Assembly (NCBI GenBank): GCA_014860225.1
Contig: JACZKE010000053.1
Span: 1 to 64,000 of the forward strand
DNA from: Desulfuromonadales bacterium
GTDB taxonomy: Bacteria > Desulfobacterota > Desulfuromonadia > Desulfuromonadales > BM103
Length of the DNA stretch: 64,000 bases
Direction of reading: 5' to 3'
This document shows positions 22,413 through 42,709 of the stretch, in pieces; positions within the stretch are counted from its first letter, which is position 1; every line of letters begins with the position of its first letter. Made by a program: the position numbers and the translations under genes. Under the pieces are notes generated by a model. That model saw only the letters and a program-made list of their open reading frames with translations, did not search any database and had not been told where the DNA came from.

Positions 22413-25055
22413 TTATTGTACAAGAACGGTTCTGACCTCACTCTGGGTCTCAGCACCACGACTGTCTCTGGCGACGATCTTCCAATAGTATGTCGTCCCT
22501 GATATCAGGCCATTGACTGTTATCGACTGAGCCTCCGCCGGCAACACTACACCACCGTCATCGACCGGGCTGTCATCACCACCACCCCCGCCACCGCAGG
22601 CAGCTATAGTCAGCAACAGACCTGAGAAAACAAGCACCAAAGCAAGATTGCGTCGCCGCCGTGTCAGACCAGGGATCAGGGTTCCTAACAGCAGGCAACA
22701 GGCACTTAACGCAACAGCCTGAACGGTCTCGACTTCCCGTGTTGTCGCTGAAGAGAAGTCAGCATTAGGAGAATATACAAGGAACTGGGCGACTGTATCA
22801 CCATCAGCATCGCTGGCCGGCAGCCAACTGAACGTTACGCTGTCGCCAACCGTTGCTCCATTTACAGGCGCCAGCGATTGTGGTGGCATTGGCGGCGTAT
22901 TGCCTGTGCCAGACAGGAAGACGGTCGCACGTTCATCACCGGTTGCATCAGAAAGGATATCGAGACTCCCTGTGAAATTTCCGGGAAGAGTCGGAGCGAA
23001 GCGGACATCAACGGTACAGACCTCAGCGGTAAGCAAAACTCTACCGCTGCAGGCATCGCTGATAACAGAAAAGGGGGGTTTTACAAGATTGGTATCAACC
23101 TCTCCGAGCGTCAATAGCGAATCGCCAACATTCTGCACCCAGATACTGGCCGAATCAGTGGCCCCGGGAGTGATTTGGGAGAAGATGACCATCCCATCGG
23201 TCTCCGGACTGATCGAGTCGGTGACGGAGATGGCCTTTCGTCCTTCCAGACTGCCGATCCCGGTCAGATCGAGCGTCACTCGTTCACGTTCAATAACATT
23301 GGAGAGTACCGCCAGACTACCGGCAAAGCTTCCTTCAGCCGTCGGAGCGAAGTTGACTCCGATACTGCAGCTCTCTCCAGCATCCAGTCGCATGCCGCTG
23401 CACGAATCACTGGTTACTGAGAACGGCGCTGCGACCGAGCTGTCATCAACCACACCGAGCAACAAGGGCAAGCTGCCGGAGTTGCGTACGGATACCGTAG
23501 CGGAAGCGATAGTTTGCGGTGGGATTTCTCCGAAAGCAATCAGGCCGTCAGTTTCAGGACTGATCGAGTCAGTCACTGAAATATCCTGTTGACCACTCAG
23601 GTAGTTGAATGCTGCCAGGGAATCAATCAGTCCGAACCCGTACACATTATCCGCTCCAACCGCTCCGAGATCAGTCGCCGACTGCTTGAGCGCTGTTTCA
23701 ATCGCATCGACCGAAACGCCAGGAAAAGCACTCAGCAACAGGGCCATGACACCACTGACATGTGAAGTTGAGAAAGAGGTCCCGCTAACCTGGGCATAGG
23801 AAAATGGAAAGGCACCACCAGCGGTCAGATCGCTCGTCCAGACCAGGAAACCGGGAGCAACGACTTCCGGATAAATCGTACCGTCACAGGCAGAGGGCCC
23901 ACGCGCACTGAAATCACTGATCAAAGTCGTAGACAAGAAAGTGCCGACTGATCCGACGGCGAAACTTTCCGGATAGTTAGCCGGAGCAACACTGGAACTT
24001 GTGCTCGGTCCGGTATTGCCGGCGGCAAAGACAACAGCAATTCCTGCTGCTTTCAATACCTGGATATCAGCCTGAAACTCTCTGGACAGGGTATTACAGA
24101 CATCGGTAGAGGTCTCAAAAGCCCAGGAGTTATTTACGATGTCCGGAGCATCGTCGGTGTTCGGGTTATCGTCCGGATCGAGCAGCCACTGGAAGCCGGC
24201 ATGGATGGCGCTATTCGAAGCCAACCCGTTGTCAGCGAATATTTTCACTCCAATCCATTCAGCATCGGGCGCAACACCGATGTAGGTGCCATCGTTATTA
24301 CCGCCAAGGACCAGACCTGCAACCTGAGTCCCGTGACCATTAAGATCCGTTGGCACAGCAGGATGTTCTCCATTGGGATCGTACCAGCTGTTGGTTCCAC
24401 TACGCCAGCGTTCTCCCAGATCTGCATGGTTGACATCGACACCACTATCGACGATGGCCACCGTGGTTCCTTGACCGGCATAGCCAAGGGCCCATAGGCT
24501 TGGGGCTTTAACCTGGTCGATATTCGGCTCTGCCGGGCCTGAAGCCTGGCTCATGACAACTTCTGGTATCTCGACAACCTGATCAAGGACAAGTGACTCC
24601 ACTTCCGGCAGTCGGGAGATTTCTTCGATCAATGCAGGTTTAGCCAGAAAAGCCGTGCCGTTTATCAACCAGAGATCTTTGTACCTGGAAACCCCGTGGT
24701 AATCGAGCAGACTTTTAAGGGACTGTTGACTATGCTTCGCTCGTGATTTGAGCGTATGAACCAGATTCGCTCGACCCTGTGCCCGAAGGTATCCCTTCTT
24801 GCGCGTTGGAACGGCAAGAGCCTGAACAGCTACAGAATCTTTCATCCGAACGATAATCGGAATCATTTCATCAGGATCGGCAAAAACAAGTTTATTCTGC
24901 AGCATGGTGTCAATTGAGGCCGCAGTAGCTGATGTAGTCGGAAACGGGAGCAGAAAGAGTCCCACGAAGACCGACAGGATTATTCTCAAACATATATAAT
25001 TCATGCGCCGATATCCCAGGAAAGATATAAAGATAGATGTCTGTTTACAGGGCAT
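22413..25055 (-). CDS. Secreted subtilase (S8) with choice-of-anchor repeats and internal lipobox-like segment
   Basis: 880 residues. A signal peptide is present; a second start at 25004 (MNYICLRIILSVFVG) gives a cleaner one. An I9-type propeptide is followed by the S8 domain with Asp in VAIVDSGVD (about 202), His in NGHGTQVAG (about 243) and Ser in SGTSFSTSHVSG (about 425). Two ISVTDSISPETDG repeats of the HYDIN/ASPM type follow. The last domain is a fibronectin type III-like fold split by a block with two hydrophobic spans around TRRRR, ending LLLTIAACGGGGGG (about 765-820). It is probably an exported protease with unusual anchoring. Confidence 0.88.
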   Translation of the reverse strand: MPCKQTSIFISFLGYRRMNYICLRIILSVFVGLFLLPFPTTSATAASIDTMLQNKLVFADPDEMIPIIVRMKDSVAVQALAVPTRKKGYLRAQGRANLVHTLKSRAKHSQQSLKSLLDYHGVSRYKDLWLINGTAFLAKPALIEEISRLPEVESLVLDQVVEIPEVVMSQASGPAEPNIDQVKAPSLWALGYAGQGTTVAIVDSGVDVNHADLGERWRSGTNSWYDPNGEHPAVPTDLNGHGTQVAGLVLGGNNDGTYIGVAPDAEWIGVKIFADNGLASNSAIHAGFQWLLDPDDNPNTDDAPDIVNNSWAFETSTDVCNTLSREFQADIQVLKAAGIAVVFAAGNTGPSTSSSVAPANYPESFAVGSVGTFLSTTLISDFSARGPSACDGTIYPEVVAPGFLVWTSDLTAGGAFPFSYAQVSGTSFSTSHVSGVMALLLSAFPGVSVDAIETALKQSATDLGAVGADNVYGFGLIDSLAAFNYLSGQQDISVTDSISPETDGLIAFGEIPPQTIASATVSVRNSGSLPLLLGVVDDSSVAAPFSVTSDSCSGMRLDAGESCSIGVNFAPTAEGSFAGSLAVLSNVIERERVTLDLTGIGSLEGRKAISVTDSISPETDGMVIFSQITPGATDSASIWVQNVGDSLLTLGEVDTNLVKPPFSVISDACSGRVLLTAEVCTVDVRFAPTLPGNFTGSLDILSDATGDERATVFLSGTGNTPPMPPQSLAPVNGATVGDSVTFSWLPASDADGDTVAQFLVYSPNADFSSATTREVETVQAVALSACCLLLGTLIPGLTRRRRNLALVLVFSGLLLTIAACGGGGGGDDSPVDDGGVVLPAEAQSITVNGLISGTTYYWKIVARDSRGAETQSEVRTVLVQ

Positions 25056-25279: not shown

Positions 25280-27013
25280 TTATGGCCAATTGCCGGTGAC
25301 AGGCTTATCACCCGCCTGGCCGAAATTAGCAAACTCAACGTCGATACCGGCATTCCAAATCCCATTGCCATTCATGTCGAGATGCCATGAACCGTTTCTA
25401 AAGAAACCGATCTGGGTGGTTCCGTCGCCGATCCAATCACCTGTAACTGGGATGTCACCTGCTTGGCCAAAGACGGCATATACGGTATCAGTATCGGGGT
25501 CCCAGGCTCCGTTGCCGTTTGCATCCAGATACCAGGTGCCGTTGCGGAAGACGCCGACCTGGTCAATCCCGTTTCCGTCCCAATCACCTGCAACCGCGAT
25601 ATCACCCACCTGACCGAAGTTGGCATAGACTGTATCGATAAGCGGATCCCAGGCTCCATTGCCGTTTGCATCCAGATACCAGGTGCCGTTGCGGAAGACG
25701 CCGACCTGGTCAATACCGTTACCGTCCCAATCGCCAGCAACCGCCTGGTCGCCAGTCTGACCGAAGTTAGCATAGACTGTATCGACAAGGGGATCCCAGG
25801 CCCCGTTGCCGTTAGCATCCAGGTACCAGGGGCCATTACGGAAAACACCAATCTGGGAGAAACTGTCGTTGTTCCAATCACCTGCAACTGTTTGATCGCC
25901 AGTTTGGCCGAAATTGACATAGGCGGCGTCGGTGCCTGGGTCCCAGGCCCCATTGCCATTGGCATCCAGAAACCATGGGCCACTACGGAAGACTCCGAAT
26001 TTTTCTGCAAGGACCGCCTTCTGAACAACATGTGGCGAAAAGGCCAAGCGACGATCGTATATGGGAATCTCGGTTAAATTGTCGGCCGTAACGATAACAT
26101 CGAATGTTTTGCCGGCCGGCAAGACCAGGGAGGACTGATCCTTGGCAAAAGGAACCTGGTTGCCGTCCTCACCCAGCAGGGTCATATAAGCACCCAGCAA
26201 CTGGGGAACGCGAGTCTGGAGCCCAGCATTCAAAAAGCGCACCAGGTTATCCCCTGGCACTACAGGAACTCCCAGATCCCCGGCATCGTAATACGGCACA
26301 CCGTTGAGAAGGAAATACCTGGGGTCATAATCGATTGTACTGGTTATCTCTTGTCCTGGGCCATAGTTGCCCGTGGCCACGGCATTGTGTATCACCGGAT
26401 CGATTTCACTAAACAGCATGTCCACTTCGTTGTTGTAAGGTGTATCGTAAACTGATGACCCACCAACATCATCGACCTTGAGCATGGCGTACAGACCCAT
26501 CTGCACCTGAACCGCCGGATGCGTACCACTCTGGATCAAGTAGGTGCCGGGGGTGAGGGTGTCCCATACATAAGTTGCGTTCCCGCCCGGTAGAGCTTCA
26601 TGGGTGAAGGACCTCACCCGCTTGGTTACGTCGCCACCACGTGAACCGGAAGTACCATCCGTCCAGGTCGGCACCATGGCACCGGCTTCGGTCGCGATCA
26701 AACCCGGGATGACGATCGAGGTCGGTTCGACCAAACCAGGCCCCAGATCATCAAGAGCATTGTTAAGATTGATGGTCAGGGTGTCGGCAGTGGTCAAAGA
26801 GATCGTCGGTCCAGGCACGGTCGCCGTTCCGGGATCATCCGTTGCAAGTCGATAACCCCACATGGGGATCACCTCACCGGTACCCGGCATTGTGAGATTA
26901 ATCTTTTCTGCCACCAGATCGACATCTACAGCCAAGGCCGGTCCGGCAATCATCATAACCAGCCCGACAGAAAATACGAGTGTGCGAAGTTTTTTCATCA
27001 TTAAGCCTCTCAT
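25280..27013 (-). CDS. Cupredoxin-like protein C with five Ca-type repeats
   Basis: 577 residues with a signal peptide ending ALA (about residue 28). Residues about 30-335 form multicopper-oxidase-like cupredoxin domains. The copper motifs have decayed: the YHCH position reads YLIQSGTHPAVQVQMGL, and no HxHG is seen. The rest (339-577) is five repeats of about 49 residues, GVFRNGTWYLDANGNGAWD and so on, each with a DxNxNGxxD loop likely to bind calcium. The same repeats end the 1926-residue protein of this operon. It is probably a structural partner of the oxidases. It starts 16 bp after protein B. Confidence 0.78.
   Translation of the reverse strand: MRGLMMKKLRTLVFSVGLVMMIAGPALAVDVDLVAEKINLTMPGTGEVIPMWGYRLATDDPGTATVPGPTISLTTADTLTINLNNALDDLGPGLVEPTSIVIPGLIATEAGAMVPTWTDGTSGSRGGDVTKRVRSFTHEALPGGNATYVWDTLTPGTYLIQSGTHPAVQVQMGLYAMLKVDDVGGSSVYDTPYNNEVDMLFSEIDPVIHNAVATGNYGPGQEITSTIDYDPRYFLLNGVPYYDAGDLGVPVVPGDNLVRFLNAGLQTRVPQLLGAYMTLLGEDGNQVPFAKDQSSLVLPAGKTFDVIVTADNLTEIPIYDRRLAFSPHVVQKAVLAEKFGVFRSGPWFLDANGNGAWDPGTDAAYVNFGQTGDQTVAGDWNNDSFSQIGVFRNGPWYLDANGNGAWDPLVDTVYANFGQTGDQAVAGDWDGNGIDQVGVFRNGTWYLDANGNGAWDPLIDTVYANFGQVGDIAVAGDWDGNGIDQVGVFRNGTWYLDANGNGAWDPDTDTVYAVFGQAGDIPVTGDWIGDGTTQIGFFRNGSWHLDMNGNGIWNAGIDVEFANFGQAGDKPVTGNWP
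25283..25999 (-). repeat. Tandem coding repeat, five units of about 147 bp
   Basis: Encodes residues 339-577 of protein C. Units two to four are nearly identical in protein sequence; unit five is shorter and more diverged. Closely similar units occur at 29862-30446. Confidence 0.85.
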
Positions 27014-27029
27014 AGCTCAGCCCCCCTTC

Positions 27030-28346
27030 CTATTCGATAGTCACTGAGGGTGGCTCGATAATGAGGAAGGTCAGCATACCACCAGGGAAGATGTCCCAGT
27101 TTGTAAGCTCTTTCTCATTGTGCGAATGCCACATGTAATAAAAACCGCCATTCTGGTTGAAGCCGCCCTCTCCCGGTGGCAAGAAAGAACCACCACCCAG
27201 GTAGGGACTGCCGCTGTAGAAGGGGCTGAAGGTCAGCTCAGAGATAGCCGGCAGGGTGACAGGGATAGGCAATCCGTGAGAAGAGGCCCCCGGGCCGAAA
27301 TCTGCTTCTACCTGCTGCTCACATGCCGTCATTGTTTCTACATCTTCGGTAGCATGACCATAATAATCCCAGCCCATGTTTGCTCCGGTCCAGGTGAACA
27401 GGGCATCATAAGTCTCTCCGGGATAAACCGACTGGGTGAAATCTGAGAACGCAAGGTCGGCCGTAGCTCCGTCAGTCGACAGCAGGCGAGCATCCTTGGC
27501 GATAACGTTGATATTATTCCCATGGGTATGAAATGGGTGTCCATCCAGGCCACCACCGACCAGACGCAGCAGAAGATTTTCACAAGGCCGGATGCGCGGC
27601 AGGCTGTTGTATGGCTGAGTCGGCAGCCAGGACACAAAAGGATCAAGCAGGGTATCGGGACCGTTCCGGCCATTGATGAACCAGTAGACAGCATTACGCT
27701 TTGTCAAATCGATCTCATCGAAGCGGCCGAACTCGACAAGATCATGGATCACCGGGTCCATATCGGTGAGGAGAAACAGTGTCTCGTAATCGTAGCTGCT
27801 GTCGGCAGAATCATAAGCTTGGCCAGCTGTGCCTGAGCGGACGACGATGGCGCCGACCAATCCCATCTCCACCTGCAGATCCATATTGGTGCCGCTGTAA
27901 TAAGTGTAGGTGCCGGGTTGGTTGTAGGTGACCTGGTATTGGGCAGTACCGTTGGCAAAGGCCGCTTCCATGGTCAAGGTCCCTGCTATATTGCCGGTCG
28001 CGTTGACCACATCGGCGCCGGGAAAAAGCATCGATGTCGCTTGTGGCAGGTGATTGGTCAGGTTAATGGTGATCGATTCACCTGCGTTGATAATAATTGT
28101 CGGTCCTGGATATTGAGCCTGGCCGCTGAGGCTGCCCTGGTGACCGCCGTCATCGGCATATCCCCAGAACAGCACGGTGTTCCCTTCGCCGGTCGTTATA
28201 TGACCCGCTTTGGCCGTAAAATTAAATGTTGTGACTCCTTCCAAGCCGTCAATTTTTGCCTGGCCGGTCCCCATCCCGGCAAACATGAGCAGGGCCGATA
28301 ACAGCAGAACACTGTTGAGTTTTCTAAAATTCTTGATATACATCAT
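27030..28346 (-). CDS. Multicopper oxidase-like protein B
   Basis: 438 residues from ATG with GGAGG 5-6 nt upstream; a TTG extension is rejected. A signal peptide is followed by two or more cupredoxin domains. The C-terminal domain carries HPFHTHGNN (about 272), the HxxHxH motif of a trinuclear copper site, and MWHSHNEKELTN (about 408), an HxH with Ser in place of the type 1 Cys. The N-terminal domain has a decayed site (YYSGTNMDLQVEMGL). Alone it can supply only half of the copper ligands; protein A supplies the other half. Confidence 0.82.
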   Translation of the reverse strand: MMYIKNFRKLNSVLLLSALLMFAGMGTGQAKIDGLEGVTTFNFTAKAGHITTGEGNTVLFWGYADDGGHQGSLSGQAQYPGPTIIINAGESITINLTNHLPQATSMLFPGADVVNATGNIAGTLTMEAAFANGTAQYQVTYNQPGTYTYYSGTNMDLQVEMGLVGAIVVRSGTAGQAYDSADSSYDYETLFLLTDMDPVIHDLVEFGRFDEIDLTKRNAVYWFINGRNGPDTLLDPFVSWLPTQPYNSLPRIRPCENLLLRLVGGGLDGHPFHTHGNNINVIAKDARLLSTDGATADLAFSDFTQSVYPGETYDALFTWTGANMGWDYYGHATEDVETMTACEQQVEADFGPGASSHGLPIPVTLPAISELTFSPFYSGSPYLGGGSFLPPGEGGFNQNGGFYYMWHSHNEKELTNWDIFPGGMLTFLIIEPPSVTIE

Positions 28347-28385
28347 CGTTTCCTCCAAAGGTCTTGAACCGATTCAACACGTATC

Positions 28386-29648
28386 CTACAGTGCGGCTGC
28401 CTGCACAACGATTTCCGTCATCATCCCGCCGTAATCTTCCTGGTCATTGCTCAGGTTGTTAAGATTAGTTGTATAAATGAAATAAGTTCCTTCAGGAATA
28501 TCGGTGGTATCAAGAAGGATATCCTTCGCTTCACCACCCCCGAGTGTCACCGAATGTGTGGTGTAGAACAGGTCCTGTACTCCGTCCGTTTCACCAGCAG
28601 TTCGCAGGATGCGCGCGCCCTGGCCGACTACGGTCATCGGAATGCTCGGTGAAGCAACCGTATAGAAGTCGACTGTTGCCAGGCTCGAGAGTCGCAGAAG
28701 AACCCGCTCGCCCTGAGGTACCTCGATGATGGAATCCATCAACTGAGCCTCGTAAAGCTCCTGGTTTGCGATGTTGTCCGGGTTCAGCGTATCCGGGTAA
28801 CCCCGACCATTGAACATCGGGTACCGGTCATGCATAAGCGCAAAAGGCAAAGGCTGAACCAATTCATTGGCGTCGTGGAAATTCGGGTCAAAGGAGTGAA
28901 TCTGCAGAGGCTTGGCAACATGATAGCCAGTGGTTCCATCGCCATCATTGTAGGCATAGCTGGGATAACCGAGATCAGTGCCATCTGTGAGGTCCTGCAT
29001 CGGACGAACGTAGATATTGCCGAGCATACCCATCTGCATGTGCTCGGTCGCTTCCACGTGACAGTGATACATAAACGTGCCCGGCTCAACCAGGTTGTAG
29101 AAATAGGTCAGGCTGAAGCCCATATTGATGGAGATCGCAGAATCCGGCAGGCCGTCGAAGATCGAGGCAACATTGGGAAAACCGTGATAATGAACCGTGT
29201 GCGGGTCGAACAGGTCCGGACGCATCAACATGCCGACGTTACTCAGGGTCAGGTAGAGTTTCTGCCCTTCGCGGACTTCGATGGTCGGCGCAGGGAAAGT
29301 GGCGCCCAGGTTCAATCCGCCCTCACTGGTCGGTAAACCGATACTTTCTGCCGGCGGACGGGATTCTCCTGGCTCTGGCTGGAACACGACCGGGTCCGAA
29401 TTTGCTAATCGATGAGACGCAAAGCCGAAGATGTAACTGTCGCGTCCGTCAGCCATTTTAATGAACCCATCACCACTGCTCAGATGTACGCAGACATGAT
29501 CGTTATTAACATCACCATCCCCATCGGTATCAATCCCATCTACATCAGGTGGGCACTGGACGCTGAATTCAGCCCAGGCGGGCATCACCCCCAGACAAAA
29601 CAACAGGGCAAGGATTGAAATGATACTGAATGCTCTATGATGCCTCAT
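28386..29648 (-). CDS. Multicopper oxidase-like protein A with type 1 copper site
   Basis: 420 residues, signal peptide ending AWA (about 26). It has a DxDxDGDGD calcium-type loop near 40-50, then cupredoxin domains. HTVHYHGFPN (about 152) is the HxHG motif. GTFMYHCHVEATEHMQMGMLG (about 192-212) gives His, Cys, His and Met in the order of a type 1 copper site like that of two-domain enzymes and nitrite reductases. HPxHxH is missing. AAAGGAG precedes the ATG. First oxidase after the giant protein, and likely partner of protein B. Confidence 0.84.
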   Translation of the reverse strand: MRHHRAFSIISILALLFCLGVMPAWAEFSVQCPPDVDGIDTDGDGDVNNDHVCVHLSSGDGFIKMADGRDSYIFGFASHRLANSDPVVFQPEPGESRPPAESIGLPTSEGGLNLGATFPAPTIEVREGQKLYLTLSNVGMLMRPDLFDPHTVHYHGFPNVASIFDGLPDSAISINMGFSLTYFYNLVEPGTFMYHCHVEATEHMQMGMLGNIYVRPMQDLTDGTDLGYPSYAYNDGDGTTGYHVAKPLQIHSFDPNFHDANELVQPLPFALMHDRYPMFNGRGYPDTLNPDNIANQELYEAQLMDSIIEVPQGERVLLRLSSLATVDFYTVASPSIPMTVVGQGARILRTAGETDGVQDLFYTTHSVTLGGGEAKDILLDTTDIPEGTYFIYTTNLNNLSNDQEDYGGMMTEIVVQAAAL

Positions 29649-29858: not shown

Positions 29859-32800
29859 TTAATCGTTCAGCCAGTTACCAGTAACCGGATAATCTCCAGC
29901 CTGGCCGAAGTTGATAAGCACCGTATCGGAGCCGGGGCCCCATATACCGCTGCCGTTAGCGTCCAGATACCAGGTGCCGTTGCGGAAAACGCCGACCTCA
30001 GATGAGACACCGTCGCCGTTCCAGTCACCGACAACCGGGAGATCGCCAGCCTGGCCAAAGTTGGCATACACGGTATCGATACCGGAATCCCAGGCACCGT
30101 TGCCGTTTGCATCAAGATACCAGATACCGTTGCGGAAGACGCCGATCTGGAGTACGCCGTCACCATTCCAATCGCCGACAACCGGGAGGTCGCCAGCCTG
30201 ACCAAAGTTGGCATATACGGTATCGGTATCAGGATCCCAGGCCCCGTTGCCATTAGCATCTAAATACCAGGTGCCGTTACGGAAGACCCCGATCTGAACC
30301 TGGTTTACAGCATCATCAGGCCAGTCGCCGACAACCGGAAGATCACCAGCCTGACCAAAGTTGGCATACATGGTATCGGTATCAGGATCCCAGGCCCCGT
30401 TGCCATTGGCGTCCAGGAACCATGGTCCGCTCCTGAAAACACCGATCGGTGTGGGTACCGGGATCTCATCCGCACCGATATCAGGTGCTCCACCCTGGGG
30501 TCTGACATCACCGTCATAATCCATCGCAAGTTCCGGGGCTACGACGGCAGCACCAACGTCGATGGCCGGTGACGTGCCAGTCAAATGGTAATTACCAAAG
30601 GTCAGGTCCAGCTCATCGAACCGTACCGAAATGTTGTTGCCGCCCTCATCGAGGGTCGCAGCACTTTGCAGCGTGTTGAAATAGCCCAGGTTGAAGGCCG
30701 GATCAGAGATGATATTGCTACCACCATCGTTGTAATCTTCTCCGAAGGCTCCTGTGAGACTGCTCAGCACCGAGGAGACCGGGTTTAGCGCACTGGTGCC
30801 GGGAACAGCCTGTCCGGTGATTCCGAGATCCCAGTAACCGGTGTCTACGAGCGCGTTAGAGCCAACATTCAACCCCTCATGATAGAAGGAGCGGTTCTGG
30901 AAGACGATGTTGTTCACCAGGACCGGATTGGGGACATTGGTGCCCAGCGCCGCAGCGAGACCCGCACTGTGGACATTCGCCTGAATACCCGCCGGCATTG
31001 GCACCGAGGCGTTCAGATTGGTGTTCGGGAAAGCCAGCAAGGCCGTGGAGGTGCTGTCATTGTGTGCGATGGTATTATTGACAATCGACACGAAAGCAGC
31101 ATCCTGCAAGGAAATCCCTGCACCTGCCATGGCCGCGACGTTGTTGACAATGATGTTGTTGTAGATCTCGGCAGTATAGTCAACGTCTGTGTCCGCTGAG
31201 TTAAGCCCCTCGATACGAATCCCGCCGCCAAAACCGGAACCGGTCAGGTTACTCTTGATCAGGTTGGCGTCGATCACCACGGAACCGGTGCCGTCACCGA
31301 TGTTGCCGATATAGATGCCACCACCATCCCCATTTGGGCCGGGGGCAAAGTAGAAGTTCTCGTTCAGCGCGATGACGTTAGCCTGAATCCTGCCGCCATC
31401 ACTGTTACCGACATGACTGATACCGGCACCGTTGCCGCGGCTGAAGTTACCCAGGATAACGTTGTTCTCAACCAGGTAGTTGTGAGAGGCTTCGTACAGA
31501 ACGACCCCGCCGCCGCCATTGACACCGGAGTTTGTGAAGACCTGGTTTTTGTGAATATGGATGCCGGTATTGTTGACATTGGCTGCGCCAGGGATACCGA
31601 CAGTGATCCCGCCACCAAGCTGACCCTGGTTGCCAGTGATGAGGTTGTTGCGGATTTCGGCATTGGCGCCATTGTCGAGCACGTAAATCCCGCCACCGAC
31701 AGTACCACCAGTGATCTTGAAGCCTTCGATGACAATTTCAGCTTCATGAGTCCTGCCCAGCGGATATATAAGTTCAGGGAAGGTTATCATGATGCCCGGC
31801 ACCTCGATCGCGGCATCAGGTGTACCGCCGAGAGCAGTCAGTTTGTCGCGCCAGACCTGGATGAGGCTCTGCACCGCCGGGCGGGAGTTGATGACTGTGC
31901 CTACCCCGGACCCGATCAGAGAGACCTCCTTGTACAGGATGACCTGCTCATTATAAGTGCCTTCGGTGACAAAGATACGCGTACCGGCACTCGCCTGATC
32001 ACTGTCAATGGCGTACTGGATCGTCTTGAACGGCGCTTCGGAAGTTCCGCCAGCCGGATCATCCACGCCATTATTGGCATCAACGAAGAGGTCGTTGGTA
32101 CAACCCCCTACCAGAACTTCGGTACCAAGCACACTGGTGTTGTCATTATCACCGCGGGTCACAGTCAAGGTCCCGGATGGCACACCGGCCGGAACGGTCG
32201 CCGTGATGCTTGTATTGGTCCAATCGCCAGGGGCGACAGGCAGCCTGATGCCACTGAGGAACACCGTCCCGGGGATGGAGCCGAAGCCGTTGTCGCGGCC
32301 ATCTACCGTCCCCTGTGAGGTGATCACGATCTGATCACCCGGGGCACACACAACCGCACCCACTCCTCCGGACTGATTCACCGAAAAGATCACAGGTATA
32401 CCGCTCGGTGGATTTACATCCAGCGGCGTGGAAGGATAACCGACAAAGGCTGCCGTCGGCACGATCGGCGAATCGATATAGCTGGTCCGTCCTGTTTCGA
32501 ACTGGAACACCCATGGTGGCACGGAGTACTCGGTTGCATGCCATTCATCGGGGATGCGCGCACCGGTCGGATTTGCCGGATTCGGCTTCAATGGGTCATT
32601 GAGGATGATATTATACATGGCCAGGGTCACGCCGGTCGGCGAGGCCTGGTTGACCGTATAGGACCCCGGTACGAGGAATTCGTAGGAGCCGAATTCATCG
32701 GAATACGTACGTGCCACTTCGCGACCATTCCAGTCGCGCAGTGAGACCGGCAGCCAGGACGGCGCCATCTTCTCACCGAAGGCCGGGCTGGCCATGTTGA

Positions 32801-35639
32801 ACTCGGGCGCCAGGTCATTATTGATAAAGCCTACACCGCGCGCCGCCTTGGGCACCTTGGTAAAGAAGAAGAATTCGGCCGCAGCGTTGAGGCCTGATCT
32901 CAGGCTCACCTGCTTGCGATCGCACAAGGGCCGTACATCCCCGGAAAATGGTGCAGAGAGGTCGGCCACGGAAAAACTTACATCGGGCAGGATCGCTCCG
33001 GCATCATCAGTCCAGAGGGACAAATAGGGTGGTACGGTTCGCGGTTCACCGACACAGACAGGCGGCAACGCCTGAGTGCTGGGGATAAACTCGTCTCCGA
33101 AATCGACGTTCTTGTCTTCTTCACGGACCTGGATGTATCCATGTGGCGTTCCAGCTTCAACGATATAGGTCCCGCTCTGCAGGGGAATCGGCGCGTCTCC
33201 GCCCGGCACGCCGACACGCATGCCGCGTTCATAGTGGTCGCCGAAGGCATAGCCACCATCGAACACTCCGTCGCGCACCTGGTTCCAGGTGCCATAGCCA
33301 TCGAAGCAAGGCGTGACAGCATTACCATGGACAACAGGTAAATCCTGGATACAACCGGTCGGCTTGTTGTCATCAAAGCTGTCGGTATAGGTGATCTGTA
33401 CAGCATCACCGTAGTCGAAGGTACCGTTGCTGTTGTGGTCGATATCTTCCGCACCCGGGAAATTGCTGAACGGCGGATTATCGATATCGGCCAACTCCGG
33501 AGTACAGGTCAACTGTTCGCTGACCGGCAGTGGGTCACCGAACTCATCGAGACAGTCGATCGTGCCGAACGGCGCGACATCGTCATGATAAAGGTTCATC
33601 TGTACATTGGGGATACCCGGCTCCCATGTTTCGGCCGCTGCATAGCGAGGGTCATCCTCGGCGCGGGTTACGGCATAGTAGACAATGCCCGAGATACCGC
33701 CGTTTTCGTCATCCAGGGTGCCGGCAACTCCGTCCGGTCCCGGACCGTAGAAATTCTTGCCCCAATCGATCACATTGGTCTGGGTGAGATAAAGCTGTAT
33801 CGCCTGGGTCAAGACCTCGCCCTCCTCCGTGCGGGACAGGTTGTTGCCAGTGTTGGGGTTGTCGATCGGCGGGCCATCGAAGCTGCCATCAGTGGTCTGC
33901 GGCTGAGGGGTCAGTGCGTCGAAGGACGGCGAAACCCAACCGTCGGCTAGCGGGATGGGACCCCCCATGTCTGCGGCTGCTGTCATACCGGTCGCTTTAT
34001 AGCGCAAAAAGTCGACTTCTGCGATCAGCCATTTGAAGAACGGGAAAACTTCGGTCAACTCATAGTCTCCTGCAGGGTCAGACACGGTCGCCTGATAGAT
34101 CGTGCCGTCGCGGAAACGAAGGTTGACCGCCTGGTCAATCAATCCGCCCATGTCATCATCGGGGAAACCGTTTTCGTTGCCATCGACGAAGATGTTGCCT
34201 TTCAAAGTACCGAACCAACGACTTGAGAGAAAAACCCTTGGCTCCCCTGCGCCGTTGTCAATGTTGTAGTTTGGAGGATCGACCGGTTCTCCGTTGACAT
34301 CAATTGTTTCAGGCATCTGGAATGCATGGAAACTGAAAAGCGCATCGAGCGGGAGATCCCAGGTGACAAGTTCGTATTGCCCTTCGGGAATCCCACTGAT
34401 AGTGAAGGTACTGTCCTCTTCGCAGGACGCGGCGTACAGGCCCTGCCCGGTAACCGCGTCGTTCACGCCAACCCAGCAGTTGTCGACCGGCGGACCGATA
34501 GCGAACGCCTGGTTATTGGGGGGCCGGGCGAAATGATTGAAGCGGTTTTCCCCTGACAGTGAGCCGAAAGTTTCACCCTCACCAGGGACGGGAGGGGTCG
34601 CCACCCAAGGCAGTTCCGCAGGGGTAACAAAACCAAAAAAGGCGTGCCAGGGAGAGGCTGCACCGAACTGCTCAACGAAGAACGGCGCCTCGTTCGCCAA
34701 TACCCAGGCGTCCACGGTCGGCGTTCCTTCAATGGTCGAGGTCAGGATGTATTCTTTGCCGTCATTCGGTGGGTTGACGACGATGCCATACTTGCCTGGC
34801 GGAATGTATTTGACGATGGCCTCGCCCGGCATCAGGTTGTACGGGTTCAGGTTTGGATTTGGAACCGGATCGGCTATGTCAACACAGTAGCCGGCAACCA
34901 ACGGATCGGTATTGACCTCAAGTCCCAGGGACCCGCAGTAATCCTCGACTGTCAGGGTGGTGAGTACGCCATCGCCGATGGTGGTTGCACATGTTTCCGG
35001 ATCGAAAGCAGTTGCAACGCATGCCTCATCATACATCGTCCCGAGCGGGTTGCCGAAAGCATCCTGCCACAACGGGCCGGCCGCATCGCTGATGATTAGT
35101 GTCGCCCCGCCCAGGCCGGGCTCGTTGTCTACTAGGTCGGGAGCGTTGTTGATCGGCCAGTGGTCCTTGAAGACGAAGACCGTAATTTGCGCCGTGGGTA
35201 ACGGATAAGGCTCAACATAGACATAAACGTCTGTTGCGCCTACCGGAACCTGGGCCCCGCCAATAGCATAACCGCTGTTAGGCATAACCGTGACATAATA
35301 CCGGCCCGCCGTGCCAACATTCACGCTTGCAGTACCGGCTGAGCCATCGCCCTTAGCCGGGGAACCATCAGTAAGCATCGCCACCGGTGCATAACTGTTG
35401 TGTATGGCAAATGACAACTGGTCTGTCACTTCAGCCCCGGGAACGGTGTTAAACGTATTGTCTACCTCGACCATCCAGCGGAAGGCCGTGTCGGTCATCG
35501 GTGTATTCGTCTGACCGTCAATCACGTGCAGCGTAAAGGCCTGGACCGGTGGAGACAGGAATAATCCTGCAAGCAGTGCGATAACCAAAACGTTCAATAC
35601 GGATACGATAAATTTACGACCACGACCTTTTTTGCTCAT
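29859..35639 (-). CDS. Giant secreted SdrD-like/beta-helix protein with Ca-type repeats
   Basis: 1926 residues. The signal peptide ends VQA (about 34). Up to about residue 1180 it shows beta-sandwich segments of the SdrD B/prealbumin type (for example GSYEFLVPGSYTVNQASPTG), with many DxDxNG loops and few Cys. Residues about 1185-1600 are a DUF1565 start (DLFVDANNGVDDPAGG) and a right-handed parallel beta-helix (repeated NNxI/GGGI). Residues 1732-1926 hold four copies of the FRNGTWYLDANGNGAWD repeat shared with protein C. GGAGG precedes the ATG. It is probably a surface or extracellular scaffold for the oxidases encoded downstream. Confidence 0.85.
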   Translation of the reverse strand: MSKKGRGRKFIVSVLNVLVIALLAGLFLSPPVQAFTLHVIDGQTNTPMTDTAFRWMVEVDNTFNTVPGAEVTDQLSFAIHNSYAPVAMLTDGSPAKGDGSAGTASVNVGTAGRYYVTVMPNSGYAIGGAQVPVGATDVYVYVEPYPLPTAQITVFVFKDHWPINNAPDLVDNEPGLGGATLIISDAAGPLWQDAFGNPLGTMYDEACVATAFDPETCATTIGDGVLTTLTVEDYCGSLGLEVNTDPLVAGYCVDIADPVPNPNLNPYNLMPGEAIVKYIPPGKYGIVVNPPNDGKEYILTSTIEGTPTVDAWVLANEAPFFVEQFGAASPWHAFFGFVTPAELPWVATPPVPGEGETFGSLSGENRFNHFARPPNNQAFAIGPPVDNCWVGVNDAVTGQGLYAASCEEDSTFTISGIPEGQYELVTWDLPLDALFSFHAFQMPETIDVNGEPVDPPNYNIDNGAGEPRVFLSSRWFGTLKGNIFVDGNENGFPDDDMGGLIDQAVNLRFRDGTIYQATVSDPAGDYELTEVFPFFKWLIAEVDFLRYKATGMTAAADMGGPIPLADGWVSPSFDALTPQPQTTDGSFDGPPIDNPNTGNNLSRTEEGEVLTQAIQLYLTQTNVIDWGKNFYGPGPDGVAGTLDDENGGISGIVYYAVTRAEDDPRYAAAETWEPGIPNVQMNLYHDDVAPFGTIDCLDEFGDPLPVSEQLTCTPELADIDNPPFSNFPGAEDIDHNSNGTFDYGDAVQITYTDSFDDNKPTGCIQDLPVVHGNAVTPCFDGYGTWNQVRDGVFDGGYAFGDHYERGMRVGVPGGDAPIPLQSGTYIVEAGTPHGYIQVREEDKNVDFGDEFIPSTQALPPVCVGEPRTVPPYLSLWTDDAGAILPDVSFSVADLSAPFSGDVRPLCDRKQVSLRSGLNAAAEFFFFTKVPKAARGVGFINNDLAPEFNMASPAFGEKMAPSWLPVSLRDWNGREVARTYSDEFGSYEFLVPGSYTVNQASPTGVTLAMYNIILNDPLKPNPANPTGARIPDEWHATEYSVPPWVFQFETGRTSYIDSPIVPTAAFVGYPSTPLDVNPPSGIPVIFSVNQSGGVGAVVCAPGDQIVITSQGTVDGRDNGFGSIPGTVFLSGIRLPVAPGDWTNTSITATVPAGVPSGTLTVTRGDNDNTSVLGTEVLVGGCTNDLFVDANNGVDDPAGGTSEAPFKTIQYAIDSDQASAGTRIFVTEGTYNEQVILYKEVSLIGSGVGTVINSRPAVQSLIQVWRDKLTALGGTPDAAIEVPGIMITFPELIYPLGRTHEAEIVIEGFKITGGTVGGGIYVLDNGANAEIRNNLITGNQGQLGGGITVGIPGAANVNNTGIHIHKNQVFTNSGVNGGGGVVLYEASHNYLVENNVILGNFSRGNGAGISHVGNSDGGRIQANVIALNENFYFAPGPNGDGGGIYIGNIGDGTGSVVIDANLIKSNLTGSGFGGGIRIEGLNSADTDVDYTAEIYNNIIVNNVAAMAGAGISLQDAAFVSIVNNTIAHNDSTSTALLAFPNTNLNASVPMPAGIQANVHSAGLAAALGTNVPNPVLVNNIVFQNRSFYHEGLNVGSNALVDTGYWDLGITGQAVPGTSALNPVSSVLSSLTGAFGEDYNDGGSNIISDPAFNLGYFNTLQSAATLDEGGNNISVRFDELDLTFGNYHLTGTSPAIDVGAAVVAPELAMDYDGDVRPQGGAPDIGADEIPVPTPIGVFRSGPWFLDANGNGAWDPDTDTMYANFGQAGDLPVVGDWPDDAVNQVQIGVFRNGTWYLDANGNGAWDPDTDTVYANFGQAGDLPVVGDWNGDGVLQIGVFRNGIWYLDANGNGAWDSGIDTVYANFGQAGDLPVVGDWNGDGVSSEVGVFRNGTWYLDANGSGIWGPGSDTVLINFGQAGDYPVTGNWLND
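29862..30446 (-). repeat. Tandem coding repeat, four units of about 147 bp
   Basis: Encodes residues 1732-1926 of the giant protein. Units match those at 25283-25999 closely, for example FLDANGNGAWDP in both first units, pointing to duplication or gene conversion between the two genes. Confidence 0.85.
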
Positions 35640-36537: not shown

Positions 36538-37056
36538 TTATTCTACAACCAGGTTTTCCACCCGATTTTCGCCAACCACAATCGTGACCGGATTGCCCTT
36601 TTTGACAAAGTTACCAGGGTTACCGAACAACATGAAATAAGTGATCCCTACCCGGGGGTCACGAGACGTCGGTCGCATGGGTCCACCCTTTGCAGGAACG
36701 GGCACTTCAAGGGCTGCACCCGTATTTTCGTCGATCAAATGGGGTTTAAGCTCTTTAAGGAAAAAGGGCATTGCTTTGTCTTTATCCAGCACTTTGAAGC
36801 GAAAGTCGAGCATGGAACCGGCTGCCGTTGTACGGATGGCAATGACTTCAATGCCCAGGTTCTCAAGAACCCGATTGTTGACAACAGCAGCTTCCTTCGC
36901 TTCGACGACTGAGGTGTCAGTCTCAGCGCGGACTGGAGTCTTGCCCACAGTCTGACAGCCACTGAGCACCAGCAACAAAATGCAACCATATACAAGCAAC
37001 TGCAGGGTTTTGGAAACAAGCAGGCTTCTACCAGAAGAAACAATTGAGAGATTCAT
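36538..37056 (-). CDS. Lipoprotein of unknown function
   Basis: 172 residues from ATG 37056. Signal peptide with lipobox LVLSGC (about residue 34). The mature part has VLENLGIEVIAIRTTAAGSMLDFRFKVLD and later DPRVGITYFMLFGNPG, with no metal motif. I recognise no family. Last gene of the copper-type operon, 90 bp after the cytochrome fusion, so it probably serves the same envelope function. Confidence 0.7.
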   Translation of the reverse strand: MNLSIVSSGRSLLVSKTLQLLVYGCILLLVLSGCQTVGKTPVRAETDTSVVEAKEAAVVNNRVLENLGIEVIAIRTTAAGSMLDFRFKVLDKDKAMPFFLKELKPHLIDENTGAALEVPVPAKGGPMRPTSRDPRVGITYFMLFGNPGNFVKKGNPVTIVVGENRVENLVVE

Positions 37057-37148
37057 CAATGTTATAGACCTTTCTTTTCTTTAAATGGACATCGCAAAAA
37101 ACTAAGGACATCTGCCCGGATTCATTATGAAATCTCATGCAGGAACAA

Positions 37149-38837
37149 TTAATGCACAATCCAGCCGCTGATCGGGACAAGCTCAGGCTGTGCCCCCTTG
37201 CTGAGCTTCGCGACAAAACAACCTTTCGAGGCATAACGCTGCCCGGGGCCAAAGCTGACCCGGGGATAGGTGGCAATAGCATAACTTTCATCGTGCATCA
37301 TATCAAATACATCCAAAAAATAGTCCCGGTAAAAATCGTCGCTCATCATGCGCGTCACGCCGGTCAGCATCCAACCGAGAAAATACATTTTTGACTGAAT
37401 GTCGATGTTGCTTATGGGTATGTTCCGGATCTTCAACCAGGACCTGACGGTCTTTTCAATCGCAGTCTTTTGCGTGAGCAGTCGATACGGATAAGTTATG
37501 TGAACAATGTCCCGTACATTCTCTGGCAAAGCACTATTTTCTTCTCCAAGGAGCCTTGACGACATGAATATGATCTCGGGCCCCGACTCTTCACTTGTTA
37601 TAAAGGGTAGTGCCTGGACACCCCCGGGACCAGCCCAGAGTGCGAACACGGCATCGGGATAGCGCCTTTTCAAATCACTCCAAAAAACCGTACTCTTCAA
37701 AGTCGCCGGATCGGCCATCTGGTCAACGTAAAGGGCCTGGCCAAACATCTTTAATGTCTGCCGGAACCCTGAGGCAAGCAAATGGCTTTCCGGATCATCA
37801 ACAAACACCTGTATAACAGGAGTGTCGCCGGTAAGCTTCATGTTGTGCAGAAATCTGGCAGCGGTTTCACCCTCCTGATAATATCCTTTGGAGAAATACA
37901 GGGTATACCAGTCATCATCGAGAACCGGCAAATCAGTCACCGGAAAAATGCTGGGAATCTCATGTTCTTCACTAAATTCATGCACAGGAGACCAGTCTCC
38001 CGTGACGATGCCGCCCAGCAGTGCGAATACCGGAGTTTTTTGATAATACAATGCCAGCTGGTCGCGCCAGGTTTCGCGTGGGCCCTTGAGTTCCCAGACA
38101 TCAAGGACCGTTTTTCGATAAGCAGAGAACTTATCCTGCTTGTAAAATGGACCTTGCCTGGCCCGGGATTCCTGGTGACGGGATTGGGCGTTGCGATCTT
38201 TAACCGCAGCCTGAAGGGGTAAGAGCATGGCATCGCGATCTTTTTGTGGCACGCCGTCGGCAACGATCGTGGCAAAACGGATTTCCGTATCGGTGACCCC
38301 GGGAGAATATTCTGCCGATAAATTCTTCAGATAGTGGACCATGATCTCCATTTCATGATCGTCAAGAAGATAGCGGGGCATGGTCCAATCAAATTCACGT
38401 CCATTCGGATCGATACCGTTGCGAAGTGCATCGGCAAGGGTTTCATCTGTGTAAGCCGGGCGGAGATCCCCACTCTGGAACGGTTTGGCAAGAAGGGTGC
38501 GGGCAGGACGGGTTTCAATCTCGGCACCGGCACGAAACGTGCGATACAATTTATCACCATTGGTGGGTAGCGTAATGATGGTTCCTTCAACCGTCCCCAA
38601 GCCACTTCTGAGGTGACAATTGTCACAGGTGAACATGGTCCCCTCCACTGGAATATCCAGTTGAACCAGAGCCTGCATCGGCTCTCCGGAAGGAAGAAGG
38701 CCCTCTCGGTACATCCGCTCGCCCAGACGCATAGCTTCTTCAGGAGAGTAGCCAGCGACGGTGGCTGGCTGGTCCGCCAGAACCGATGTCGCAATAAAAA
38801 AAAGCAGCACGCTCAGCAAACTTATTTTTTTGATCAT
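37149..38837 (-). CDS. Cytochrome c fused to periplasmic binding protein
   Basis: 562 residues, cleavable signal peptide (about 1-21). A mono-haem cytochrome c domain has C71-D-N-C74-H75 and spans about 25-185. The remainder (about 185-562) looks like a type I periplasmic ligand-binding protein (FALLGGIVTGDWSPVHEFSEEHEIPSIFPVTDLP, then GETAARFLHNMKLTG). Such a fusion could sense or deliver electrons with a bound ligand. GAGGAA lies 5 nt before the ATG. Neighbours are SCO, a membrane protein, an ABC system and NosL. Confidence 0.82.
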   Translation of the reverse strand: MIKKISLLSVLLFFIATSVLADQPATVAGYSPEEAMRLGERMYREGLLPSGEPMQALVQLDIPVEGTMFTCDNCHLRSGLGTVEGTIITLPTNGDKLYRTFRAGAEIETRPARTLLAKPFQSGDLRPAYTDETLADALRNGIDPNGREFDWTMPRYLLDDHEMEIMVHYLKNLSAEYSPGVTDTEIRFATIVADGVPQKDRDAMLLPLQAAVKDRNAQSRHQESRARQGPFYKQDKFSAYRKTVLDVWELKGPRETWRDQLALYYQKTPVFALLGGIVTGDWSPVHEFSEEHEIPSIFPVTDLPVLDDDWYTLYFSKGYYQEGETAARFLHNMKLTGDTPVIQVFVDDPESHLLASGFRQTLKMFGQALYVDQMADPATLKSTVFWSDLKRRYPDAVFALWAGPGGVQALPFITSEESGPEIIFMSSRLLGEENSALPENVRDIVHITYPYRLLTQKTAIEKTVRSWLKIRNIPISNIDIQSKMYFLGWMLTGVTRMMSDDFYRDYFLDVFDMMHDESYAIATYPRVSFGPGQRYASKGCFVAKLSKGAQPELVPISGWIVH

Positions 38838-38911: not shown

Positions 38912-39484
38912 TCAGTTTTTGTAAAGAGCGTCTACTTCCTGTTTGAGTTCTTTTGTGCCGACCAGTCCATAAATCCTGATCCAGGTGCTTCCTTCCGGTG
39001 AGCGAATCAGAGTCAGCGGGTAATGGGACATTTTATCCTGAACATATGCATCAAAGGCATGCATCACCTTTTCGATGTCTACCCGGCTCCCGGTCAGGTA
39101 GTCCCAGCCCGGCTTGGCTTGGTAACGGGACAAATATTCGGTCATGACCTCAGGCGTATCATATTCCGGATCAATTGAGATTGAAACCAGTTGAATCTGG
39201 TCCGAATCCTCACCGAGTTTTCGCTGCAGATTCGAATAGCCCGCAGAGAGAATCGGACAGATAGTCGTACAGGTCCCATAAATAAAGTCAACCAGTACCG
39301 GTTTGTCTGAAGCAAGGAGTTCAACCAGGTGCACACTCTGCCGATCCTGATTGGTCAAAACAACATCCGGAACCACATAAACTTCTTCCGTTCTTTTATA
39401 TCTTTTTTCCTCTGCGACCGCATTGAATACAGTGAAGATCGATAAGAGCAATAGACAGATCAGAGAAAAAACCGTTTTTTTCAT
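38912..39484 (-). CDS. SCO1/SenC/PrrC-family copper chaperone
   Basis: 190 residues with signal peptide. Thioredoxin-like fold with the copper motif C72-T-T-I-C76 in FIYGTCTTICPILSAGY and a candidate His ligand H154 (KMSHYPLTLI). SCO proteins insert copper into CuA or related sites, or act as thiol reductases. AAGGAG precedes the ATG. It lies 45 bp after the polytopic membrane protein gene. Confidence 0.9.
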   Translation of the reverse strand: MKKTVFSLICLLLLSIFTVFNAVAEEKRYKRTEEVYVVPDVVLTNQDRQSVHLVELLASDKPVLVDFIYGTCTTICPILSAGYSNLQRKLGEDSDQIQLVSISIDPEYDTPEVMTEYLSRYQAKPGWDYLTGSRVDIEKVMHAFDAYVQDKMSHYPLTLIRSPEGSTWIRIYGLVGTKELKQEVDALYKN

Positions 39485-39529: not shown

Positions 39530-40540
39530 TCAAAAATAAGCGGTCATTGCCAAAGGTCCGAAGAGTACCGGCCACCCCGTTAATAAAGCAAACAGCATCC
39601 AAAAAAACAAAGTCATCAGAAGCCATGGCCTCTGAGCTCGAGACGTAATAACACTGAGACCGGGGATCCGGCATAGATATTCTAGCATGGCCTGGACCAG
39701 GCCGCAGATGGTCGCACCCAGCAGGCTGAGGTAAATCGGGTACCCGACAAAATTCGAAGATCTCTGAAGCATGTCGAAAGGACAATGATGAGTCGGCAGT
39801 TCGTAAATGTAAAGTGAGATGAAAGAGACTATGGCGGTCAGTCCCAGAACAAGAAAAAGGCCGGAGGCCAGAGCCAGAAGATAATGCATCCACGGCCGCC
39901 GGCTTAACAAGCTTAACAGCACCAGGCACCCATAAGCAGCAAGCCCCGCGTAGAAGACAATCATCATCGGCCGCAGAGGCAACGCCGCCAGTTCGCTGGC
40001 GAGTCCATCCCCTCCACTGCTGAACAGCGCCCCGCAGCATGAGGTTATCACTTCTGGCTCGAGGCCGGCAAAGTAGATCACCATCAGAGTCAGATCAGCT
40101 ATGGCCAGCGGCAAAAATGGTATCAGGGCAATGAACTTGAATCGGGTCAGGGGCGCCTCTGGGCATTGCAGATCGAGATGGTTAAGTACCATCCAGAGAC
40201 CGCCGAGCAAAAACAGCAGCAGCTTGATCCAGATAAGGTGCCAGCCGATCGGGTTGGCGTTGAGCGTGCCGGTAGCGCACATGGCCCCGACGAACAAGGG
40301 GTGAATGACCTCTGCGGTATAGATAAAGAGTAGTAACGACAGGGCTTCGAAGACGATGGCCCAGCGCACAAGGACAGCCACCAGCCAGGCGCGTCGCTCA
40401 AGACTGAGCTGGTCGGCTTCAGCACCGTCCGGGTTCCAGCGGCGCGCTATCCGGATACCAAGCAGAGCGCCAGCTGACAGCATCAACAGGCTGACCAGTC
40501 CACCCAGGAGCAGTGCCAGCACCCCCGGATGCAGAATCAT
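39530..40540 (-). CDS. Polytopic membrane protein with Cys/His motifs
   Basis: 336 residues with about eight to nine hydrophobic spans. Loops carry MCATGTLNANPIGW, ITSCCGALFSS and ELPTHHCPFDML, all with Cys or His able to bind copper. No named family is recognised. Its ATG overlaps the stop of the ATPase gene (ATGA), so it is tightly co-translated with the ABC transporter. Likely a copper-handling or oxidase-assembly membrane partner; inference. Confidence 0.72.
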   Translation of the reverse strand: MILHPGVLALLLGGLVSLLMLSAGALLGIRIARRWNPDGAEADQLSLERRAWLVAVLVRWAIVFEALSLLLFIYTAEVIHPLFVGAMCATGTLNANPIGWHLIWIKLLLFLLGGLWMVLNHLDLQCPEAPLTRFKFIALIPFLPLAIADLTLMVIYFAGLEPEVITSCCGALFSSGGDGLASELAALPLRPMMIVFYAGLAAYGCLVLLSLLSRRPWMHYLLALASGLFLVLGLTAIVSFISLYIYELPTHHCPFDMLQRSSNFVGYPIYLSLLGATICGLVQAMLEYLCRIPGLSVITSRAQRPWLLMTLFFWMLFALLTGWPVLFGPLAMTAYF

Positions 40541-42383: not shown

Positions 42384-42709
42384 CAGGGTTGTGCCACGCG
42401 GCGGATGTGCATGGTCGTCTCCGGCCGAGGGCCAGCAGGGGCCATCAGGCTACCAGCGGGAAAATGGTCAAACGCACCCGGATGATCCTGAAATGGGCTG
42501 AACAGATCAGCCATCGAAGGATGACGGGTATAGCGGGCTTCTGTCCACAGCGCCAGGTCGGTCAGAGACAGAACGCTGACCAGCTGTCTTCTCGCCGGCA
42601 ACCCATCCGCCAGAAAAGTTGCCGATGTCTTTTGCGCCCATCCCGTCAAACCGGCCAGCGCTGTCAGCAGCACAGCTATGAGACAGAGATAAGCGCGGCT
42701 GCGGATCAT
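42383..42709 (-). CDS. Small exported or membrane-anchored protein of the copper operon
   Basis: 108 residues with an N-terminal hydrophobic segment (YLCLIAVLLTALAGLTGWA). The rest has many His, Pro and Met (PSMADLFSPFQDHPGAFDHFPAG, then TTMHIRRVAQP) and could bind metal. No family recognised. Both ends overlap its neighbours, ATGA with nosL and TGATG with the permease, so it is certainly part of the operon. Confidence 0.7.
   Translation of the reverse strand: MIRSRAYLCLIAVLLTALAGLTGWAQKTSATFLADGLPARRQLVSVLSLTDLALWTEARYTRHPSMADLFSPFQDHPGAFDHFPAGSLMAPAGPRPETTMHIRRVAQP

Follow-up and report, generated by a model that had tools for sequence, protein, structure and literature searches.

Multicopper oxidases (MCOs) are, to our knowledge, normally described with identical or complete protomers. 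Can the active site of such an enzyme instead be divided between separate gene products? The question is raised by three adjacent minus-strand genes, here called A, B and C, in a 64,000-nucleotide (nt) stretch of contig JACZKE010000053.1 (assembly GCA_014860225.1) from a Desulfuromonadales bacterium; this stretch is the window referred to below. An initial annotation, made from the DNA letters, had proposed that A and B jointly form a heteromeric oxidase with C as a scaffold. We find that A, B and C very probably constitute one secreted heteromeric MCO with a single active site between A and B, and that the A/B division is real and widespread, a variant on the known two-domain MCOs.

Gene A (28386-29648) encodes a two-domain cupredoxin protein of 420 amino acids (aa) with a leader resembling those of the general secretory (Sec) pathway. 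Gene B (27030-28346, with a possible alternative TTG start at 28358) encodes 438 aa, and gene C (25280-27013) encodes 577 aa, in which two ligand-free cupredoxin-like domains (about 26009-27013) are followed by five repeats of about 49 aa. The open reading frames (ORFs) lie exactly where the initial annotation had placed them, with gaps of 39 nt between A and B and 16 nt between B and C. Between positions 25000 and 30200, promoter and terminator signals did not rise above those of shuffled sequence.

Complementary half-sites in A and B

Domain 1 of A carries PHTVHYHG at residues 149-156 and YHCHVEATEHMQMGM at residues 194-208, matching the MCO motifs HxHG and HCH-x5-H-x4-M. Its ligands (H150, H153, H155, H195, C196, H197, H203 and M208) amount to a type 1 copper site, formed by C196 with H150, H203 and M208, plus four histidines of a trinuclear site. 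Domain 2 of A is ligand-free, and HPxHxH was not found in the A sequence, in agreement with the initial description of this protein. B has its ligand-free domain first: the motifs GHPFHTHG (residues 269-276, HPxHxHG) and WHSH (residues 406-409) both lie in domain 2 and provide the ligands H270, H273, H275, H407 and H409. Both motifs had been annotated correctly, but the accompanying claim that B contains no cysteine is true only at the type 1 position; cysteines exist in RPCENLL and TACEQQ, and neither occupies that position. C, as annotated, has lost every ligand, and neither half-site is present in its sequence.

No single chain therefore has all four copper motifs (HxHG, HxH, HPxHxH and HCH-x-H-x-M): A has two, B has the other two and C has none. 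Judged from their sequences, A and B demonstrably carry complementary half-sites and together supply one type 1 copper site and all eight histidines of a trinuclear site, which bears out the claim that the pair holds the complete motif set of one enzyme. The motif signal is not a chance occurrence, because the Pfam family Cu-oxidase_3 matches B and A with expectation values (E) of 5.5e-14 and 1.4e-12, respectively. A and B are the only two matches to this family at E 0.001 in the 3.9-Mb genome. Cupredoxin domains are evident in A and B both by Pfam and by fold; the Pfam score of C (18.3 or 20.2) falls under the cut-off of 21. In all, six cupredoxin domains are spread over three separate ORFs rather than one chain.

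Conservation and co-occurrence of the three genes

We scanned a species-genome collection with an alignment of A, which returned 538 relatives, and kept the best 80 of these 538. Ten more loci were added, eight from relatives of the window's genome and the others from Cupriavidus metallidurans and Paraburkholderia, giving 90 loci; the weaker matches L012-L022 were excluded. Three of the 90 duplicate another exactly in A (L004/L029, L005/L027 and L010/L056), leaving 87 distinct loci. The order A-B-C on one strand is found in 78 of the 90, all of them distinct, with no exception to the order: in the remaining 12 the sequence stops within about 1.6 kb after A, too early to show C, and in eight of those cases C is present in the genome. 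The three genes are thus adjacent wherever the sequence suffices, as the divided-site proposal requires. Among the record titles of the relatives are Deltaproteobacteria, Desulfobulbaceae, Beta- and Gammaproteobacteria, Nitrospirae, Planctomycetes, Acidobacteria, Myxococcota, Hydrogenedentes, Kiritimatiellae, Bdellovibrionales and one Bacteroidales metagenome-assembled genome.

The ligands of both half-sites are strictly kept. H150, H153, H155, H195, C196 and H197 of A are invariant in 91 of 91 rows (window included; 88 distinct), while M206, which is not counted as a ligand, is a threonine in one row. For B, H270, H273 and H275 are found in all 90 rows that are readable there, and H407 and H409 in all 87. 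The B gene of locus L076 (11147-12440) has in-frame stops before its last motif, reflecting either an assembly error or decay; the other unreadable B positions are contig ends. Opposite C196 of A, a joint alignment of 31 sequences each of A, B and C has serine, at the type 1 position, in all 31 B and in 30 C sequences; opposite H197 it has glycine in all 31 B and in 28 C, and opposite H155 proline in 30 of the 31 B. By a crude rule, and with open-ended and overlong ORFs excluded from the count, leader-like N-termini are present in 77 of 79 A, 87 of 88 B and 72 of 76 C proteins examined.

The genes also occur together when whole genomes are compared. We surveyed 194 genomes of the class, calling a match strong at E 1e-50 or better for A (next match about 3e-13) and 1e-32 or better for B (next 1e-10), with E 1e-5 for C. 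Strong B matches occur in 21 genomes and C in the same 21; strong A matches occur in 20, all among the 21 with B and each adjoining B. The single exception to the absence of solitary strong matches is the 21st genome, which has no strong A and in which B starts 84 bases from a contig end. Weaker matches in other genomes of the class resemble other oxidases. The probability of the A/B overlap arising by chance is about 2e-26, with kinship ignored. Within the genus, A-B-C is accessory, being found in one of ten other genomes. Pairwise distances, computed for 70 of the 78 loci, correlate at 0.73 for A-B, 0.66 for A-C and 0.67 for B-C, against 0.27 for the largest shuffle; at the level of sequence distances, this shows joint inheritance, not contact.

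Relation to two-domain oxidases and predicted structures

We compared A and B with known structures. The best Protein Data Bank (PDB) matches of A, through its ligand-bearing domain, are 3g5w (8e-13, residues 30-129) and 2zwn (residues 30-130), in both cases their domain 1. The B profile finds the same two proteins (2zwn, 2.9e-15; 3g5w, 3.8e-15), mostly through the ligand-free domain 1 of B; a second, weaker stretch (E 0.0038) aligns HPFHTHG with the motif in domain 2 of 2zwn. We take both chains to be of type C. According to the part of PMC13151041 consulted, two-domain MCOs are trimers, with domain 1 of a protomer and domain 2 of the adjacent one building the trinuclear site, and the type 1 copper is in the N-terminal domain in type C and in the C-terminal domain in type B. 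By that definition, a type B assignment for A is ruled out, and the type 1 site in domain 1 makes A type C-like. From the interface rule given there and the placement of the half-sites, it follows that A and B would hold opposite sides of one interface.

Locus L060 has the three genes in one frame, and reading through two stop codons yields a 1197-residue chain with the leaders as linkers. For folding, we used alignments of A-B-C, A-B, cropped B-C and A rows only; MAFFT misplaced single B and C rows onto A. AlphaFold2 predicts the L060 A-B-C chain with a predicted local distance difference test (pLDDT) value of 82.8 and a predicted template modelling (pTM) score of 0.84; pLDDT falls below 50 in the linkers (414-445 and 867-895), at 806-818, at the C-terminus and in three shorter stretches. 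The window's own A-B chain reaches a pLDDT of 72.3 and a pTM of 0.70. In VIA-align, B superposes on 2zwn with Z 30.0 (2.5 Å, 273 residues) in the L060 model and Z 27.9 (3.0 Å, 272 residues) in the window model, and A superposes on 3gdc with Z 26.4, again in the window model. The three-domain MCO 6vow aligns across the window A-B model over 376 of 409 residues (2.6 Å, range 39-865) and across the L060 A-B-C model over 380 of 409 residues (2.8 Å, range 51-857), spanning A and B. In three-domain oxidases the trinuclear site is built by domains 1 and 3, so the superposition would set domain 1 of A against domain 2 of B. With the co-occurrence described above, the confident joint fold supports the heteromeric oxidase of the initial annotation, and conservation, co-occurrence and prediction together strongly suggest that A, B and C assemble jointly.

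We therefore propose the following model. Each of A, B and C would be a diverged copy of a two-domain (type C-like) MCO subunit, and the copies would have specialised: only A would keep a working domain 1, with the type 1 copper, four histidines and the HCH relay, and only B a working domain 2, with four histidines. Because domain-1 function would reside only in A and domain-2 function only in B, one complete site would be expected, at the interface of A domain 1 and B domain 2. The type 1 copper of A would oxidise the substrate and, as in the family at large, electrons would pass via Cys196 to His195 and His197, with B completing the trinuclear site. The ligand-free C, a likely third ring member, would fill the third place of a ceruloplasmin-like ring; its designation as a scaffold fits a three-subunit ring and is less certain. 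We infer the 1:1:1 stoichiometry, the exact interface geometry, the copper content and the role of C.

Evidence against the model and alternative explanations

Several observations weigh against this model. As a single sequence, B finds FET3 and ascorbate oxidase as its best PDB hits, via domain 1, and its domain-2 match to 3g5w or 2zwn then fails E 0.01 on its own. The search pattern included E202, H203, M206 and M208 of A, and their constancy is therefore partly selected. Any fused cupredoxin set might reach a high pTM. The assignment of A domain 1 and B domain 2 to domains 1 and 3 of 6vow is derived from order and range, and the 3g5w chain aligned over residues 53-984 of the L060 model, from A into C (280 residues, 2.7 Å), a result we cannot explain. 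Ceruloplasmin is among the top Foldseek hits, but its root-mean-square deviation in a sequential alignment is 34 Å, without a ring match. Such a value would be expected for a permuted domain order and is no proof of a ring; despite the top E-values, we did not use ceruloplasmin as a whole-ring match. Finally, the metal-oxidation role discussed below rests on reports about a cluster matched by description only.

An unlikely alternative is that an A-B heterodimer, or A and B in another stoichiometry, is the enzyme, and that C stays outside the active particle, with an accessory role at the surface or in adhesion. Of the three proteins, C is the least conserved (mean pairwise distance 0.561, compared with 0.415 for A and 0.447 for B), and it is just the N-terminus of a protein of about 2700 aa in Cupriavidus and Paraburkholderia, and a second gene family, described below, shows the same A/B division with only two matching ORFs in 11 of 11 loci. 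Against this, the 21 of 194 genomes that have B are also those that have C, and C follows B wherever the sequence is readable and belongs to the confident joint model of L060; known two-domain MCOs, moreover, are trimers in the account consulted (PMC13151041). That A acts by itself as a type 1 (blue copper) protein of electron transfer, with B and C as degenerate structural relatives and no trinuclear site, is improbable: the type 1 site is indeed complete in A alone, and B and C lack a cysteine there, but such a protein needs neither HxHG nor histidines flanking the cysteine on both sides, and the five ligand-type histidines of B are kept in all 87-90 readable sequences.

Marginally less probable still, in our view, is that the complex is a copper enzyme other than an oxidase, for instance one resembling nitrite reductase. 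Both A and B do have copper nitrite reductases among their closest folds, but two-domain oxidases give the best E-values for A and for the B profile, and HCH, HxHG, HPxHxH and HSH make up the eight-histidine trinuclear set of an oxidase; nitrite reductases have three histidines at their type 2 site. The short gaps between the genes could also betray fragments of one broken oxidase. This we regard as hardly credible, given that every one of the three proteins has a separate leader and a pair of cupredoxin domains, that the gene order recurs in 78 loci and that high scores with both the A and the B profile are not combined in any ORF of the 90 loci: the largest smaller score is 115 bits, and complete A or B members score about 440-740 bits. 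The preferred reading is a secreted A-B-C heterotrimer with a single shared site.

Gene neighbourhood and possible function

Directly upstream of A lies the gene of a giant secreted protein (29859-35639, 1926 aa; this and the following genes are all on the minus strand) with SdrD_B, beta-helix and choice-of-anchor Q domains and four C-like repeats. A repeat of about 49 aa (FRNGTWYLDANGNGAWDP...) closes both C and the giant protein, at 25280-26000 and about 29862-30440, respectively. A repeat of similar look, FG-GAP-like, occurs at the C-terminal end of the OmpB-like oxidase of locus L140. An ORF of at least 900 aa similar to the giant protein precedes A in 59 of the 63 unfused loci with room for it, and six of the nine long A ORFs carry the giant's sequence ahead of A in one ORF. 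Just downstream of C is an S8 subtilase with choice-of-anchor D domains (22413-25055).

Farther upstream of A follow a 173-aa protein that looks lipoprotein-like by eye and has no Pfam match (36538-37059), and a MofC-like protein (37149-38837) with one CxxCH haem motif and a periplasmic-binding domain just under the Pfam cut-off, the MofC label being taken from a description in PMC5566968. An SCO1/SenC copper chaperone (38912-39484; PF02630, 1.3e-21) comes next, then, in the same gene block, a membrane protein by eye without a Pfam match (39530-40540), an ABC transporter ATPase (40537-41274) and a MacB/FtsX-type permease (41226-42383). A NosL-family protein (42706-43200; PF05573, 1.7e-23), of a family that binds copper, a response regulator (43393-44055) and a histidine kinase (44046-45029) complete the neighbourhood. 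Where the flanks are complete (37 loci), the lipoprotein-like gene occurs in 34, the MofC-like gene in 17 and SCO1 in 16. In Cupriavidus metallidurans (L023, 5676-13762), ORFs resembling a type II secretion system by eye lie upstream of A-B-C.

MofC-like and SCO1 genes also adjoin OmpB-like single-chain oxidases with HLHG, YHDH and WHCH motifs in other genomes of the class (L140, 4238-8083; L143, L144, L146-L149, L151 and L152), and one accessory module thus seems to serve different oxidase types. The OmpB-like label follows from motifs and neighbours.

A similar gene set is known from Sideroxydans lithotrophicus ES-1, which, in the part of He et al. 2017 consulted (PMC5566968), has three tandem MCO genes together with mofC-like and copper chaperone genes and proteins predicted to be extracellular. 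In the corresponding part of Keffer et al. 2025 (PMC12016527), the cluster Slit_1812-1818 shows higher expression late in magnetite cultures than it does with Fe(II)-citrate; two of its three cupredoxin proteins have MCO motifs while the larger third does not. Tentatively, A-B-C would oxidise a metal outside the cell, for instance solid Fe(II) or Mn(II). Given the neighbours and the Sideroxydans report, this activity, with a MofC-like cytochrome as partner, is plausible. In the same tentative picture, the giant protein would hold the enzyme to the cell surface, SCO1/NosL-type proteins would load the copper and the MofC-like cytochrome would be the electron partner.

A second, two-gene family

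A related family consists of a B-type gene followed by an A-type gene and was found at 11 loci: L138 (3749-7532), L139 (3769-7531), L142 (3002-6703), L179 (2608-5532), L180 (2151-5194), L181 (2307-5308), L182 (3494-6539), L183 (2583-5650), L184 (2089-5036), L185 (1786-4577) and L186 (898-4022). At each, only two ORFs in the 7-20 kb inspected match A, B or C profiles; the pairs of L138, L139 and L142 adjoin MofC/SCO1 genes. Motifs of the B-type proteins are HxxHxH[GA], or a variant of it, and MHDH (replaced by MHCH in L184); those of the A-type proteins are H[TS]IH[WH]HG and YHCH. A twin-arginine translocation (Tat) motif is present in nine of nine B-type proteins examined, and no signal sequence was seen in any of eight A-type proteins examined. 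Proteins without a signal of their own cross by the Tat route only when bound to a signal-bearing partner. The combination of a signal-less A-type with a Tat-bearing B-type protein therefore supports a physical A/B complex, and suggests that the pair is exported preassembled.

In an unrooted tree of 65 sequences and 316 columns, A groups with the second A-type (support 89), B with C (91) and B plus C with the second B-type (97), while four single-chain two-domain oxidases group on the A side (97). The tree fits one ancestral division followed by a duplication of B that gave rise to C, with the caveat that sites with lost ligands may attract each other. On balance, we lean slightly towards a clade of obligately heteromeric MCOs in which an ancient duplication of a two-domain oxidase produced A-types, keeping the domain-1 half-site, and B-types, keeping the domain-2 half-site. 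One branch would export the pair by Tat with the signal on B only, and the other would secrete its subunits separately and have gained C as an inactive B copy that closes the ring; their members would be unrecognised extracellular metal oxidases in many phyla.

Comparison with known systems

If the model is correct, the O2-reducing site is an obligate split, existing only where two different proteins meet. Single members expressed alone are then predicted to be inactive, and annotation and motif scripts would call each half an oxidase or miss it. The system would also offer a testable enzyme for the oxidation of mineral-bound iron or manganese, a process whose extracellular catalysts remain an open question.

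Within the literature covered, the site division between A and B appears not to have been spelled out earlier for these genes. The Sideroxydans cluster corresponds to A-B-C by description, with two MCO-motif proteins, a larger third without motifs, SCO1 and a cytochrome; the parts consulted of PMC12016527 and PMC5566968 treat the proteins as separate MCOs or cupredoxins and contain no statement of complementary halves. The names Slit_1816-1818 were found in one paper. No paper on a 'split multicopper oxidase' was found in a search whose coverage leaves out most subscription papers, and none of the literature matches listed, judged by title and start of abstract, describes an MCO with a site divided like that of A and B.

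OmpB of Geobacter and MofA of Leptothrix share the MofC-like and SCO1 neighbours of A-B-C but are single chains with all motifs. We rejected the idea that they represent A-B-C fused in one chain: the profiles miss the large HLHG/YHDH/WHCH proteins, with no A, B or C match at E 1e-3 in the OmpB-like ORFs of the loci named above, the comparison covering these ORFs rather than OmpB and MofA themselves. The Mn(II) oxidase MnxEFG, whose chain 9bxa_A was found by Foldseek, is a heteromeric MCO complex, as we propose for A-B-C, but MnxG alone holds the complete active site, MnxE and MnxF being small copper subunits. Ceruloplasmin has three two-domain units arranged as a ring, a single trinuclear site, and type 1 coppers in its even domains. 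Its six domains belong to one polypeptide, whereas those of A-B-C come from three separate ORFs; A-B-C would thus be a natural case of subunit specialisation by complementary loss, comparable to ceruloplasmin but encoded by separate genes. Closest are the type C two-domain MCOs, represented by the Nitrosomonas europaea blue copper oxidase (3g5w) and a metagenome laccase (2zwn), which have the same fold as A and B, carry the type 1 site in domain 1 as A does and are among the best sequence and fold matches of both proteins. These enzymes are homotrimers in which every protomer is complete; in A-B-C, by contrast, the half-sites lie in different gene products, none of them complete, and one site per A-B-C is expected.

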